Of a stretch of DNA of 38,596 nucleotides, positions 16,350 to 28,795 are shown one piece after another; the stretch's first letter is position 1; the number at the start of each line of letters is the position of its first letter. Source of the stretch: Alphaproteobacteria bacterium (GTDB taxonomy: Bacteria; Pseudomonadota; Alphaproteobacteria; SMXS01); contig JANQQJ010000030.1 of the NCBI GenBank assembly GCA_028284945.1, positions 1 to 38,596 of the forward strand, written 5' to 3'. The notes beneath the pieces are model-generated. The model made no database searches. It saw only the letters and a list, made by a program, of their open reading frames with translations, and was not told where the DNA came from. The translations under genes were made by a program, and so were the position numbers.

Positions 16350-17879
16350 ATGGCATCGGGAATGCGACAAAGCATGCGGCAAGGCCAGAATCTGGTCATG
16401 ACGCAACAGCTGCAGCAGGCGATCAAACTGCTGCAGCTCTCGACGCCGGAATTGGCGGCCTATATCGAACAGCAGGTCGAAGGTAACCCGCTTCTGGAGC
16501 TCGATGAGCGGGGGACGGATCAGGCCGATGCTCAAGCCGACGCGCCCCTGCGAAGCCAGCGAGAGCTCACGACGACGGATCGTGCGCTGGATGGCACACT
16601 GCCTATCGATCACGGCAGCGGATCACAGGTAAGCCGGGACAACACTTTCACCAATGACGACCGGACCGCGGTAGCGGGCGAAACCGATGGCCGCTGGCTG
16701 GAAGCCGGGGGTCAGTGGTCGTCGTCTTCTGTTGGCGGCGAGGGGCTACCTCCACCCGACGTGGCGGACCGCTTGCCGGGGGAACGCCCGCCGCTGCGTG
16801 ACTTCTTGCATGAGCAACTCGCGCTTTCGGCCATGGAGGCCGACGCGCAGATGATCGGCCGATATCTGATCGATACGCTGGATGACGCCGGCTATCTGAC
16901 AGACGACCTGGATGACATTGCAGATCGGCTAGGCTGCACGGCAGACGAAATCGAGGCGGTCTTGCCCGGGCTGCAGGACTTTGACCCGCCTGGTATTTTT
17001 GCCCGGTCGCTGTCGGAGTGCCTGGCGCTGCAGCTCAAGCAGCTGGACCGCTTTGATCCGGCGATGCAGACCCTTGTTGAAAATCTTGAAGCGCTCGCCG
17101 AAGGCGAAGTTGTCGCGTTACAACGCCAATGCGGCGTCGGTGAGGAGGATTTTGCCGATATGCTGGCGGAAATCCGCGCTCTCGACCCCAAGCCCGGGCA
17201 AGCGTTTGAAGGCGCGGCAGCGCAGATCGTCGTACCGGATGTATTTGTTTGGCAAAACGACGATGGCGGTTGGTCAATCGAGCTTAACTCCGATGCGCTG
17301 CCGAAAGTGTTGCTCAATCGCCGTTACTATGCGGAGGTTAAGGCGGCATCCCGGTCGAAAAAGGACAAAGCGTACCTGTCTGATTGCTTCGGCAACGCAA
17401 GCTGGTTGATCAAGGCACTCGATCAGCGGGCACAGACGATCCTCAAAGTTGCGACAGAGCTGGTGAGCCAGCAGGAAGGTTTCTTTCTGCACGGCGTGGG
17501 TCATTTGAAGCCCTTGACCCTGCATCAGGTGGCGGACGAGATCGGCATGCATGAAAGCACGGTAAGCCGGGTGACAGCGTCAAAGTTCCTGACCTGCCAA
17601 CGGGGCACGTTCGAGCTGAAATATTTCTTTACGTCAGCGATCAACGCCACAGCCGGCGGGGAAGCGCATTCGGCGGAATCCGTCCGCCAGCGGATCAAGG
17701 TATTGGTCGACGAGGAAGACCCAAAAGCGATATTATCGGACGATAAGATCGTCAGCCTGCTACAGGGCGAGAATATCGACATCGCCCGACGCACGGTTGC
17801 CAAATACAGGGATGCATTGCACATCCCCTCATCGGTGCAACGCCGCCGGATAAAAGCCTCTCAGGTGCCACGCCCTTAG
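16350..17879 (+). CDS. rpoN: RNA polymerase sigma-54 factor
   Basis: Alternative sigma factor that recognises -24/-12 promoters and needs AAA+ activators. The 509-residue product has the Gln/Leu-rich region I (MTQQLQQAIKLLQLSTPEL, residues 17-35), an acidic variable region II (about 50-140), the core-binding domain (about 140-300), a helix-turn-helix (about 389-414, TLHQVADEIGMHESTVSRVT) and the RpoN box ARRTVAKYRD (479-488). All functional regions are intact. It is the fourth gene after lptCAB, and the operon has a sigma-54 motif upstream, so positive or negative autoregulation is possible. Confidence 0.97.
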   Translation: MASGMRQSMRQGQNLVMTQQLQQAIKLLQLSTPELAAYIEQQVEGNPLLELDERGTDQADAQADAPLRSQRELTTTDRALDGTLPIDHGSGSQVSRDNTFTNDDRTAVAGETDGRWLEAGGQWSSSSVGGEGLPPPDVADRLPGERPPLRDFLHEQLALSAMEADAQMIGRYLIDTLDDAGYLTDDLDDIADRLGCTADEIEAVLPGLQDFDPPGIFARSLSECLALQLKQLDRFDPAMQTLVENLEALAEGEVVALQRQCGVGEEDFADMLAEIRALDPKPGQAFEGAAAQIVVPDVFVWQNDDGGWSIELNSDALPKVLLNRRYYAEVKAASRSKKDKAYLSDCFGNASWLIKALDQRAQTILKVATELVSQQEGFFLHGVGHLKPLTLHQVADEIGMHESTVSRVTASKFLTCQRGTFELKYFFTSAINATAGGEAHSAESVRQRIKVLVDEEDPKAILSDDKIVSLLQGENIDIARRTVAKYRDALHIPSSVQRRRIKASQVPRP

Positions 17880-17905
17880 ACTTGGCCGCGCGTGAGGCAG
17901 GCAAA

Positions 17906-17934
17906 TTGACACGGCCCGGGGAGGTCACTATGGT
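17906..17934 (+). promoter_or_regulatory. Candidate sigma-70 promoter of hpf
   Basis: A perfect TTGACA (17906-17911) is followed after 17 nt by TATGGT (17929-17934, 4 of 6). Transcription would begin near 17941, 76 nt before hpf. This would let hpf and ptsN be expressed independently of rpoN. Confidence 0.55.
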
Positions 17935-17937
17935 CCC

Positions 17938-17955
17938 GCCGCCTGACCAGGCGGC
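17938..17955 (+). other. Hairpin between rpoN and hpf
   Basis: GCCGCCT (17938-17944) and AGGCGGC (17949-17955) form a perfect 7-bp stem with a GACC loop. No T-run follows, so it is a poor intrinsic terminator. It could stabilise the rpoN 3' end or sit at the extreme 5' end of the hpf message. Confidence 0.4.
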
Positions 17956-18016
17956 AAGCTGGCCGTTCGGCGATTTAGATGATCGATCGCCGATGGCCGC
18001 AAGATAGAAAGAACCA

Positions 18017-18589
18017 ATGGACGTACAAGTAAACGGCAAGCAAATCGACGTCGGCGAAGCGCTACGCGGCCACGTCGTTGACAGGATTGAAGAGCGGGTC
18101 AGCAAGTACTTCGACCGCGCGGTTGATGCCCATGTCACTTTTTCACCCGAAGCCCATATGATCCGCGTGGATTGTTCGGTTCATGCCGGTCATGGAATCG
18201 ATATGCATAGCCACGCGTCCGCGGAAGATCCGTATGTCAGCTTCGACCAGGCGCTGGACAGAATCGAAAAACGTCTGCGCCGTTACAAGCGGCGGCTTGT
18301 CGACCACCACCATGGTGGCAAGGGCGAGCTTGAAACAATTCCGGCAGCCAGCTATGTCTTGGCAGGGGATGATGACGCGGCAGAAGAGCCAGAAGACCTC
18401 CAGCCGGTCATCGTTGCAGAAACGCGTACGGATATTCCCACGACGACAGTGGGAACAGCGGTAATGCGGATGGACCTGGCGGGGTCGCCGGTCTTTATGT
18501 TCCGTAATTCAGCCCACGGGGGCTTGAACGTGGTTTATCGACGGGCCGATGGCAATATCGGCTGGGTAGATCCAGGGCAAGAGGACTAG
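18017..18589 (+). CDS. hpf: Long-form ribosome hibernation-promoting factor
   Basis: Binds the 30S decoding channel in stationary phase and dimerises ribosomes into inactive 100S particles. The 190-residue length marks the long form. The S30AE domain occupies about 1-100 with the basic stretch KRLRRYKRRLVDHHH; a linker (about 105-130) precedes the C-terminal dimerisation domain (about 132-188, AVMRMDLAGSPVFMFRNSA). It lies between rpoN and ptsN, as in most proteobacteria, and probably has its own promoter as well. Confidence 0.95.
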   Translation: MDVQVNGKQIDVGEALRGHVVDRIEERVSKYFDRAVDAHVTFSPEAHMIRVDCSVHAGHGIDMHSHASAEDPYVSFDQALDRIEKRLRRYKRRLVDHHHGGKGELETIPAASYVLAGDDDAAEEPEDLQPVIVAETRTDIPTTTVGTAVMRMDLAGSPVFMFRNSAHGGLNVVYRRADGNIGWVDPGQED

Positions 18590-18631
18590 CTGGGCCAAGC
18601 CTTTATCGGCTCAGCATCAGACGGACGCCGG

Positions 18632-19093
18632 ATGGAAATCGAACAAATCCTAACGCCTGAATCAGTAGTCGACTCCCTTCGGGCGTCGAGCAAACGTCAG
18701 GCATTGCAGGAGTTGTCGGAACGGGCGGCCGTCATTACCGGGATCAGTGGCCGGGAACTGCTAGAGACGATTCTGGGCCGCGAACGCCTGGGAACCACTG
18801 GCGTTGGGCATGGGGTCGCCATTCCGCATGGCCGAATCGACAAGATCGATCGGCTTTACGGCCTCTTTGCCAGGCTCGCGGAGCCGATCGATTTTGAAGC
18901 CATCGATGATGAGCCGGTCGACCTGATCTTCATGTTGCTGGCACCGGAGAGCGCTGGTGCTGATCATCTCAAGGCCCTTGCCAAGGTGTCGCGGCTGCTG
19001 CGCGACAAATCGATCTGCGACAAGCTGCGTGGCAGTGACAGCGCTGATGCGCTATACATCCTGTTGACGGATACCCAGGCCGACGCAGCCTAA
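18632..19093 (+). CDS. ptsN: PTS IIA-like nitrogen regulatory protein
   Basis: EIIA-Ntr, the terminal phosphate acceptor of the nitrogen phosphotransferase system, which regulates potassium transport, nitrogen and carbon functions. The 153-residue product has the phosphorylated histidine H66 in GVGHGVAIPHGRI, followed by the PTS_EIIA_2 fold. It is 42 bp downstream of hpf and is the last gene of the rpoN cluster; it converges on the DUF1150 gene with 9 bp between stop codons. Confidence 0.96.
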   Translation: MEIEQILTPESVVDSLRASSKRQALQELSERAAVITGISGRELLETILGRERLGTTGVGHGVAIPHGRIDKIDRLYGLFARLAEPIDFEAIDDEPVDLIFMLLAPESAGADHLKALAKVSRLLRDKSICDKLRGSDSADALYILLTDTQADAA

Positions 19094-19115
19094 ACCTCAC
19101 GGTTAATGAAGGCTG
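19086..19115. terminator. Possible two-way terminator over the ptsN / DUF1150 stop codons
   Basis: A nested inverted repeat, CAGCCT (19086-19091) with AGGCTG (19110-19115) and AACC (19093-19096) with GGTT (19101-19104), spans both stop codons. There is no T-run on either side, so termination is only a suggestion. Confidence 0.3.
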
Positions 19116-19318
19116 ACAACCTCTAGCTCATGCTCAAGCGCGGCCGCTTTGGCGTGGGCCGGACTTTCCATCAGTCCGATCGGCTGACCGGTTGCGTTGT
19201 GGACCGCAAAAGCTGTGACGCCGTTCTCGACAACCGGTTTGATATAGATGACGGACTCCATGCCCAGTTCGGCAAAGGCCTGTGGTGACAGGGTTTTCAG
19301 TGTTTCGGTGCGTTGCAT
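19103..19318 (-). CDS. DUF1150 family protein
   Basis: A 71-residue soluble protein of the alphaproteobacterial DUF1150 family, function unknown. The characteristic segment is LGMESVIYIKPV followed by AFAVHNATGQPIG and a conserved A-A-A pattern near the end (AHAKAAALEHELEVVSLH). It is 24 bp behind hsp20 and has a good AGGAG-type ribosome site in that gap (AAAAGGAGAGGTCAG). Sharing the hsp20 transcript suggests a heat-stress-linked role, which is inference. Confidence 0.88.
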   Translation of the reverse strand: MQRTETLKTLSPQAFAELGMESVIYIKPVVENGVTAFAVHNATGQPIGLMESPAHAKAAALEHELEVVSLH

Positions 19319-19342: not shown

Positions 19343-19756
19343 CTATGCGGTTGAGTTGATAGTGATTTTGCGGACGTCCGGCTCAACCTTGGGGCGGGTG
19401 AGTTCGATCGCCAGCAGGCCGTTTTTCGTATCGGCGCCTGTTACTTCGATACCGTCTGCCAGAACGAAGCGGCGCTGGAACTGCCGGGCCGCAATGCCGC
19501 GATGAACATAAACGGTTTCGGTGTCCTGCGGCCGCTTGCCGACGATTACCAGTTGATTGTCCTCGACCGTGACGGAAAGGTCGTCCGCGGCAAACCCCGC
19601 GACCGCCAGGACGATCCTCCAGGACGTTTCACTGACCTGCTCGATGTTATAGGGCGGATAGCCGTCATCGGCGGACTTGGCCGCGCGGTCGAGCATCTTT
19701 TCGAGCCTGTCAAAGCCGAGCAGAAAGGGGCTCGAAAGACCTACGGGTCGGCTCAT
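19343..19756 (-). CDS. Small heat shock protein, Hsp20/IbpA type
   Basis: ATP-independent chaperone that holds unfolded proteins in oligomers. The 137-residue product has an N-terminal region with SSPFLLGFDRLEKMLDR and the alpha-crystallin domain from about 35 to 125: PPYNIEQ, WRIVLAVAGFAADDLSV, the RGIAARQFQRRFVLADGI segment, and NGLLAIELTRP. The frame is open up to 19876, but ATG 19756 is chosen because AAGGAGA sits 7 nt upstream and the N-terminus then matches the family. Expression is probably heat-controlled twice, by a sigma-32-like promoter and by a thermometer leader. First gene of the hsp20-DUF1150 operon. Confidence 0.95.
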   Translation of the reverse strand: MSRPVGLSSPFLLGFDRLEKMLDRAAKSADDGYPPYNIEQVSETSWRIVLAVAGFAADDLSVTVEDNQLVIVGKRPQDTETVYVHRGIAARQFQRRFVLADGIEVTGADTKNGLLAIELTRPKVEPDVRKITINSTA

Positions 19757-19836
19757 ATTGGTGTCTCCTTGCATGAAGCGAGAGCTGTTGGCGCTGTTTG
19801 GCGCCAGATACAGCGGCCCGAAGGGTGGCGCCGCGG
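19757..19836 (-). promoter_or_regulatory. ROSE-like RNA thermometer in the hsp20 leader
   Basis: On the mRNA, UCUCGCUU (19783 down to 19776) pairs perfectly with the Shine-Dalgarno AAGGAGA (19770-19764) leaving exactly one bulged G and a 5-nt loop. UCGCU within it fits the UYGCU motif that defines ROSE thermometers, which melt near heat-shock temperature and free the ribosome site. Upstream stems support the multi-hairpin layout: GGCGC/GCGCC (19790-19805) and GCGGC/GCCGC (19813-19834). The leader length (about 80 nt) and the small-heat-shock context both fit. Confidence 0.72.
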
Positions 19837-19842
19837 CCCCAT

Positions 19843-19871
19843 ATTTGGGGGTCCTATTGCAGTCGTTCAAG
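19843..19871 (-). promoter_or_regulatory. Sigma-32 (RpoH)-like promoter of hsp20
   Basis: Reading the minus strand, CTTGAAC (19871-19865) and CCCCAAAT (19850-19843) are 14 nt apart. They match the heat-shock sigma consensus CTTGAA and CCCCATNT with a single mismatch in the -10. Transcription would start near 19836. No comparable sigma-70 pair overlaps it on this strand. Confidence 0.65.
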
Positions 19872-19892
19872 GGCATTGCTGCAGTGCACTAT

Positions 19893-19920
19893 TTGCGCCC
19901 CGGTGACGCATCAGTATAGT
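19893..19920 (+). promoter_or_regulatory. Candidate sigma-70 promoter of the Sel1/SPOR gene
   Basis: TTGCGC (19893-19898) and TATAGT (19915-19920) are 16 nt apart, 32 nt before the chosen start. The -10 is good (5 of 6), the -35 is weak (3 of 6). It is divergent from the hsp20 promoter with 21 bp between the two -35 elements. Confidence 0.45.
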
Positions 19921-27022: not shown

Positions 27023-28795
27023 ATGTCCGACGCGACAGTTGCGGGCGCTGGCAGCGCCCTTCGTGATGAATTTGCCGCCCTTTTAGATGAATCATTCGGG
27101 AAACGGGACGCCATAGAGGGTTCCGTAATCACCGGTAAGGTCGTTGGAATCGAAAATGACCTGGCGATCATCGATGTGGGTTTGAAGGCTGAAGGCCGTG
27201 TGCCGCTGCATGAATTTGCGCCGCAGGGTCAAGAAGCCGAAATCAGCGTCGGTGACGACGTTGAAGTCTATCTTGAACGGATGGAAAACGCGCTGGGTGA
27301 GGCTGTTATCAGCCGCGAACGCGCGCGCCGTGAAGAGGCCTGGGACCGGCTTGAGAATGCCGCAGATGGCAGCTCACGCGTTGAAGGGGTGATCTTCGGA
27401 CGCGTCAAAGGCGGGTTCACTGTCGATTTGGATGGTGCTGTTGCGTTCCTGCCGGGCAGTCAGGTTGATATCCGCCCGGTACGCGACATCGCGCCGCTGA
27501 TGGGGATCCCTCAGCCGTTCCAGATTCTCAAGATGGACCGCCGCCGCGGCAACATCGTTGTTTCACGCCGGGCCGTTCTGGAAGAGACACGGGCCGAACA
27601 GCGCACCGAATTGCTGGCCGATCTGCACGAAGGCCAGGTGCTTGAGGGCGTGGTCAAGAACATCACCGATTATGGCGCGTTTGTTGACCTGGGTGGCATT
27701 GATGGCCTGCTTCACGTGACCGACATGTCGTGGCGCCGGATCAATCACCCGACCGAGGTCGTCAACATTGGCGAGACCCTTAACGTTCAGGTGATCAAGG
27801 TTAACCCGGAAACCCAGCGCATCAGCCTTGGCATGAAGCAGCTGGAAGCCGATCCCTGGGATAGCATCGAGGCGAAGTATCCGGTCCGCACGACCTTTAC
27901 CGGCCGTGTCACCAACATCACCGACTATGGCGCTTTTGTTGAACTGGAGCCCGGTGTTGAAGGCCTGGTTCACGTCTCTGAGATGAGCTGGACCAAGAAG
28001 AACGTCCATCCGGGCAAGATCGTGTCGCAAAGCCAGGAAGTCGACATCATGATTCTGGATGTCGATCCGGCCAAGCGCCGCATCAGCCTGGGTCTCAAGC
28101 AGGTTCAGGACAATCCGTGGGATACCTTCGCAGCCAGCCATCCGGAAGGCACCGAGGTGGAAGGCCAGGTCAAGAACATCACCGAATTCGGTCTGTTCAT
28201 CGGCCTCGAAGACGATCTCGACGGTATGATCCATCTGTCGGATCTGGACTGGAACCGCAGTGGCGACGAGGTCCTGCAGGAATACAAGAAGGGCGACACC
28301 GTCAGGGCCGTCATTCTGGACGTCGATGTTGAAAAAGAGCGCATCGGTCTGGGCATCAAGCAGCTCAGCGAGGATCCGTTCGCCTCTGTTGCCGGCATGA
28401 AGCGCGGTGAAATCGTAACCTGTACGGTGACCGCAGTTCAGGAACCCGGCCTTGAAGTCACCTTCGGCGATTCCGAATATCCGGGTTATATCCGCCGCGG
28501 CGACCTCGCGCGTGATCGCGGTGATCAGCGTCCGGACCGGTTCGCCCCGGGCGACAAGGTCGACGCCATGGTCACCAATATGGACCGCTCGTCCCGGCGC
28601 GTCGCCTTGTCGATCAAGGCGCTGGAGATCCAGGAAGAGAAGCAGGCCGTCGAGCAGTATGGTTCGACCGATGCGGGCGCCAGCCTTGGCGACATTCTGG
28701 GCGCGGCCATGGACAAGGCGCGTGGTGACGCTGCCCCAGAGGGTGGTGACGCGGAAACCTCAGAGTCAGATGCCGGTGAGGACGACAAGAAATAG
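27023..28795 (+). CDS. rpsA: 30S ribosomal protein S1
   Basis: Binds mRNA at the ribosome and aids initiation on structured leaders. The 590-residue product has six S1 domains at about 35-100, 118-184, 205-275, 290-362, 377-448 and 464-532; domains 3 to 5 share the closely repeated core VKNITDYGAFVDL / VTNITDYGAFVEL / VKNITEFGLFIGL. The C-terminal ~40 residues are acidic. AGGAG is 6 nt before ATG. A CCGCG/CGCGG stem (26975-26995) lies in the leader, where S1 is known to control its own synthesis in other bacteria. Confidence 0.97.
   Translation: MSDATVAGAGSALRDEFAALLDESFGKRDAIEGSVITGKVVGIENDLAIIDVGLKAEGRVPLHEFAPQGQEAEISVGDDVEVYLERMENALGEAVISRERARREEAWDRLENAADGSSRVEGVIFGRVKGGFTVDLDGAVAFLPGSQVDIRPVRDIAPLMGIPQPFQILKMDRRRGNIVVSRRAVLEETRAEQRTELLADLHEGQVLEGVVKNITDYGAFVDLGGIDGLLHVTDMSWRRINHPTEVVNIGETLNVQVIKVNPETQRISLGMKQLEADPWDSIEAKYPVRTTFTGRVTNITDYGAFVELEPGVEGLVHVSEMSWTKKNVHPGKIVSQSQEVDIMILDVDPAKRRISLGLKQVQDNPWDTFAASHPEGTEVEGQVKNITEFGLFIGLEDDLDGMIHLSDLDWNRSGDEVLQEYKKGDTVRAVILDVDVEKERIGLGIKQLSEDPFASVAGMKRGEIVTCTVTAVQEPGLEVTFGDSEYPGYIRRGDLARDRGDQRPDRFAPGDKVDAMVTNMDRSSRRVALSIKALEIQEEKQAVEQYGSTDAGASLGDILGAAMDKARGDAAPEGGDAETSESDAGEDDKK

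Follow-up and report, generated by a model that had tools for sequence, protein, structure and literature searches.

The locus considered here raises the question of whether the short leader of a small heat shock gene, hsp20, is an RNA thermometer that could cover its Shine-Dalgarno sequence (SD) when cool and uncover it on heating. The first-pass annotation of the window (the whole 38,596-nt stretch analysed, contig JANQQJ010000030.1) had proposed control by a ROSE-type element. On sequence grounds we consider it very probable that the leader is a ROSE-like RNA thermometer. The proposal draws support from a motif and covariation among relatives, from the type of gene, from a leader of about 78 nt, from an RpoH-like promoter and from a further upstream hairpin with a bulged G. 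ROSE-like elements are defined by the sequence U(U/C)GCU paired imperfectly with the SD in a 3′-proximal hairpin; in known members a bulged G is predicted along with UYGCU, control needs no more than a short hairpin, and deleting the bulged G abolishes it (PMC3669281, PMC11342760).

The gene is of the expected type, encoding a small heat shock protein (PF00011), and the chosen start at 19756 (minus strand) is consistent with the N-termini of relatives. An alternative in-frame ATG at 19876, giving 177 aa, is unlikely since it overlaps the promoter -35 box. A DUF1150 gene begins 24 nt past the hsp20 stop on the shared strand, and the two probably form one operon. Upstream of hsp20 lies CTTGAA-N15-CCCCAAATAT, which resembles the RpoH promoter consensus; promoters of the CTTG..CCC-A/T type were found upstream of 44 of the 80 relatives' genes, against 0.7 in shuffles. 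From the promoter-like sequence we infer a transcription start near 19834 and a leader of about 78 nt, a length that fits the ROSE reading. Elsewhere in the window (16350-19093, plus strand) genes for rpoN (sigma-54), an S30AE ribosome hibernation factor and a PTS EIIA-type protein (ptsN) stand consecutively, heading towards the hsp20-DUF1150 pair. Coordinates of the features are collected in Table 1.

Table 1. Features of the hsp20 locus, in window coordinates
Feature	Position	Strand	Basis
-35 box CTTGAA, candidate RpoH (sigma-32)-like promoter	19866..19871	-	consensus likeness
-10 box CCCCAAATAT, candidate RpoH-like promoter	19841..19850	-	consensus likeness
Upstream hairpin I, GCGGC[G]CC ACCCUUC GGGCCGC, bulged G 19829	19813..19834	-	predicted fold, R2 match, conserved design
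Upstream hairpin II, core UGGCGC CAAACA GCGCCA	19785..19812	-	predicted fold
Anti-SD arm UCUCGCUU, ROSE motif UCGCU, bulged G 19779	19776..19783	-	motif kept in relatives; R2 alignment
SD arm AAGGAGA, predicted to be masked by the anti-SD arm	19764..19770	-	flanking pairs covary
hsp20 (small heat shock protein) CDS, the controlled gene	19343..19756	-	PF00011, 67 bits, 1.7e-18
DUF1150 gene downstream of hsp20	19101..19318	-	PF06620, 44.7 bits

The annotated SD helix, said to have 7 bp and exactly one bulged G, is exact: 5'-UCUC[G]CUU CAUGC AAGGAGA-3' (19783 to 19764, minus strand) gives seven Watson-Crick pairs with a single bulged G at 19779. It lies directly upstream of hsp20, 7 nt from the start codon. 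The anti-SD arm does contain UCGCU, at 19781-19777 and opposite AGGA, which fits UYGCU. Taken by itself the leader sequence is just mildly unusual, since 1.4% of dinucleotide shuffles with the SD side held fixed yield a bulged-G helix with 7 or more bp. The significance of the predicted SD hairpin comes from relatives, not from the single sequence.

Relatives were sampled as 80 alphaproteobacterial hsp20 loci (57-66% protein identity) together with 18 loci of the window's own family, including both paralogs. Of 79 leaders, 67 have T[CT]GCT within the 45 nt preceding the start, where dinucleotide shuffles give 8.2; the same loci served for a control in which 10 of 220 SD-bearing ORFs had UYGCU. 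The bulged G opposite the SD (G19779) is also kept. In MAFFT alignments of all leaders (A1 and A2) the SD arms were misaligned in many rows. Covariation was therefore counted on anchored arms, with the motif fixing the 5′ arm and the first AGG the 3′ arm irrespective of pairing, and the control consisted of arms swapped between leaders. Pair g-3, three positions outward from the bulge, is present in 56 of the 62 distinct leaders, as C-G in 35, G-C in 9, U-G in 9, A-U in 2 and U-A in 1; with arms swapped the figure is 37.8 (sd 2.6), and 56 is not reached in any of 2000 swaps, in a statistic that ignores shared ancestry for loci drawn from several orders. Pair g+3 is formed in 54 leaders, against 46.1 in swaps (0/2000 as high), and g-4 in 31, against 23.1 (5/2000 as high). 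Pairs beyond g-4, and g+4, found no covariation support in the swap test, so that the conserved helix is put at about six to seven pairs. A set of 28 aligned leaders showed two-sided changes in 5 pairs, against 0-2 in slid controls, with an alignment that had been fitted to the structure. The annotation would have been refuted by two outcomes together, no covariance-model hit and no preserved UYGCU/SD pairing in relatives. The first holds for the Rfam models, but the pairing is preserved: the motif persists in most leaders, and a pair adjacent to it covaries.

Two further stems had been placed upstream of the SD hairpin, and both are recovered, at 19834-19813 (hairpin I) and within 19812-19785 (hairpin II). 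Hairpin I has five outer pairs and a bulged G at 19829. A Y[G]CC...GG hairpin lies upstream in 76 of 89 leaders when four or more outer pairs are required (5.8 in shuffles) and in 68 of 89 when five or more are (2.1 in shuffles); the consensus of the Rfam family RF00435 likewise has the bulged-G Y[G]CC...GG feature in its first hairpin. Hairpin II sits where relatives have a GGGYGCC...GGGCCC hairpin. As a separate observation, hairpin I (19813-19834, and the equivalents in relatives) repeats the Y[G]CC/GG design of the SD hairpin and is conserved at least as strongly.

The search with Rfam ROSE covariance models went against the annotation, giving zero matches to the hsp20 leader in the window. 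With Rfam release 15, ROSE matches were absent from the window at the gathering threshold and at E 10. The test itself works, because accepted rhizobial-type leaders used as RF00435 positive controls (L107-L111, the hsp20 leaders of Agrobacterium, Rhizobium, Mesorhizobium, Microvirga and Paracoccus) score 56-71 bits; the window leader does not reach the RF00435 gathering threshold of 45 bits. RF02523 (ROSE_3; gathering threshold 43 bits) had no match in the window at E 10 or in the rest of its genome at E up to 1. Across the window and 60 relatives' loci, scanned at gathering or relaxed thresholds, sub-threshold ROSE matches appeared in two relatives and in the second hsp20 gene of the same genome, with none in the window. 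The two relatives were L046 (Ferrovibrio, 33.8 bits) and L030 (30.9 bits), both matched by RF02523. An order-level search with RF02523 added nothing, the order comprising just the same ten genomes.

We also built covariance models of our own. R1 was made from the leaders of nine relatives, and its matches in 318 kb were almost exclusively hsp20 leaders. R2 extended it to 28 leaders, the window's family being left out. In 19700-19900 (201 bases) the two best R2 matches lie on the correct strand and correspond to hairpin I (16 bits, 19790-19835) and the SD hairpin (5.6 bits, 19765-19784). Searched across the genomes of the family, R2 had no significant match at genome scale and is thus too weak for genome-wide use.

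Folding calculations bear on other readings of the leader. Its folding energy is not exceptional (z-score -1.2). In ViennaRNA the probability of the SD helix spans 0.02-0.69 as the 3′ end and the temperature are varied, and nowhere from 25 to 42 C does the helix open sharply; for three of five control leaders of known ROSE type the prediction is just as poor, and the calculation was weighed neither for nor against a thermometer. The z-score, and the fraction of shuffles that equal the helix, are what could be said for the 7-bp match being chance complementarity in a GC-rich leader, a reading that we give practically no credence since motif conservation, covariation and the upstream hairpin in relatives contradict it. 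A thermometer of another design could instead hide the start codon in the helix GCUUCAU/AUGAGC, with the SD in a loop and the ROSE-like pairing secondary. Once the RNA extends 30 nt into the coding sequence, ViennaRNA favours that helix (probability 0.77 at 30 C), yet the preference vanishes when the 3′ end is placed elsewhere (0.04-0.45 at 30 C). Nor is the helix conserved: five of the nearest relatives begin with GTG and none has a complementary CAU there, while the anti-SD arm is retained. Masking of the AUG was rejected as the main mechanism, and we regard this design as improbable.

The same low probability attaches to control by RpoH transcription only, in which the leader structure would be incidental or would merely protect or stabilise the mRNA. 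The RpoH-like promoter could account for heat induction on its own, but a neutral leader would not be expected to covary or to retain UYGCU opposite the SD in so many relatives. A fourU thermometer was rejected as well: that class has four consecutive U paired with the SD, the anti-SD arm here is UCUCGCUU, and the leader lacks UUUU.

As a ROSE-like thermometer the leader would work as follows. At cool temperatures UCUC[G]CUU-CAUGC-AAGGAGA would cover the SD and block ribosome binding. The bulged G would weaken the SD helix, so that it would open at heat-shock temperature and the chaperone be made, probably along with the DUF1150 protein. Folding of the 3′ hairpin may be assisted by one or both of the stable upstream hairpins, of which the first has a bulged G of its own. 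RpoH probably raises transcription simultaneously, and control would then be double. The melting, its temperature and its effect on translation belong to this proposed mechanism.

The predicted hairpin, the motif with its conservation and covariation, the upstream hairpin and the promoter-like sequence come from sequence comparison, and they bear on the class of the element. The leader has the broad ROSE-like features, namely a position 5′ of a small heat shock gene, UYGCU paired imperfectly with the SD, a bulged G, one or more stable hairpins further upstream (for a total of two to four) and compensatory changes, and it falls short of the RF00435 and RF02523 scores. It is for these reasons named ROSE-like and not a member of RF00435; as predicted, it is a divergent ROSE-like element beyond the reach of the Rfam models.

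With RF00435 (Bradyrhizobium hspA ROSE1, Agrobacterium hspAT type) it shares a small-heat-shock leader of about 80-100 nt, a 3′ hairpin with U(U/C)GCU as anti-SD and a bulged G, and an upstream Y[G]CC...GG bulged-G hairpin. It differs in having no Rfam match, in reading UCGCU where the rhizobial elements have UUGCUC, and in a short (7 bp) 3′ hairpin that includes neither the AUG nor the long lower stem of RF00435. The short ROSE-like thermometers of Pseudomonas ibpA resemble it in the short 3′ UYGCU hairpin over the SD with the AUG unpaired, the GC-rich stable upstream hairpin, the sigma-32 promoter and the leader of 60-80 nt (PMC3669281). They belong to another bacterial class and have two hairpins whereas the window has three, with a bulged G in its upstream hairpin. 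ROSE_3 (RF02523) is linked through its sub-threshold matches to relatives L046 and L030, unlike the window leader itself, which has none.

ROSE-like thermometers ahead of alphaproteobacterial small heat shock genes are already established. The finding is ordinary in kind: by 2005 the ROSE-type elements predicted in alpha- and gammaproteobacteria already numbered more than 40 (PMC4166951), and Gluconobacter is listed with an Rfam ROSE ahead of hsp20 (PMC5756330). The gain is modest: one more ROSE-like member, well beyond the Rfam models, and a second conserved bulged-G hairpin. Nearly all sampled hsp20 leaders of the DUF1150-operon type, in several alphaproteobacterial orders, keep the motif and show compensatory changes, which suggests that Rfam annotation underestimates ROSE elements in alphaproteobacteria. 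It is conceivable, if rather doubtful, that Rfam misses a distinct ROSE subclass made up of the hsp20 leaders of Rhodospirillales, Acetobacterales and Rhodobacterales, in which one and the same bulged-G element, Y[G]C/GG, occurs at least twice in tandem and the upstream copy either responds to temperature itself or adjusts how the SD hairpin melts.

The closest genomes vary the SD hairpin, and two of the variants, in the nearest genus and in leader L011, count against the ROSE reading. In the nearest genus (g2, seven genomes) it reads UGCCC[G]CUUC-GAAGG(A)GGCA, which retains the bulged G and GCUU and has a C in place of the first U of UYGCU, giving CCGCU. Our strict bulged-G helix finder missed this genus because the SD arm also has a bulged A. 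One leader of g3 has UGUUC[G]CUUA/UGAGGAGCA. In another, L011 (g3, one of nine family leaders), neither UYGCU nor a bulged-G SD hairpin was found at the assigned start; either the hairpin has been lost or the start is wrongly assigned, both being possible.

The window's own genome has a second hsp20 paralog (G000:C26:27498-27899, minus strand), with a leader at 27926-28016 (L002 1929-2019) in which the hairpin is CUUGUU[G]CUC-AAUG-GAGAAUGAG. No other stretch of the genome matches an Rfam ROSE model as well as this leader (35.3 bits, E 0.002; cut-off 45), and so both small heat shock genes found there appear to carry ROSE-type hairpins, the paralog's nearer the canonical form. Just behind this second hsp20, at L002 1404-1469 (minus strand), lies a sub-threshold match to BjrC68 (RF02353; 24.9 bits), perhaps a terminator-like stem.
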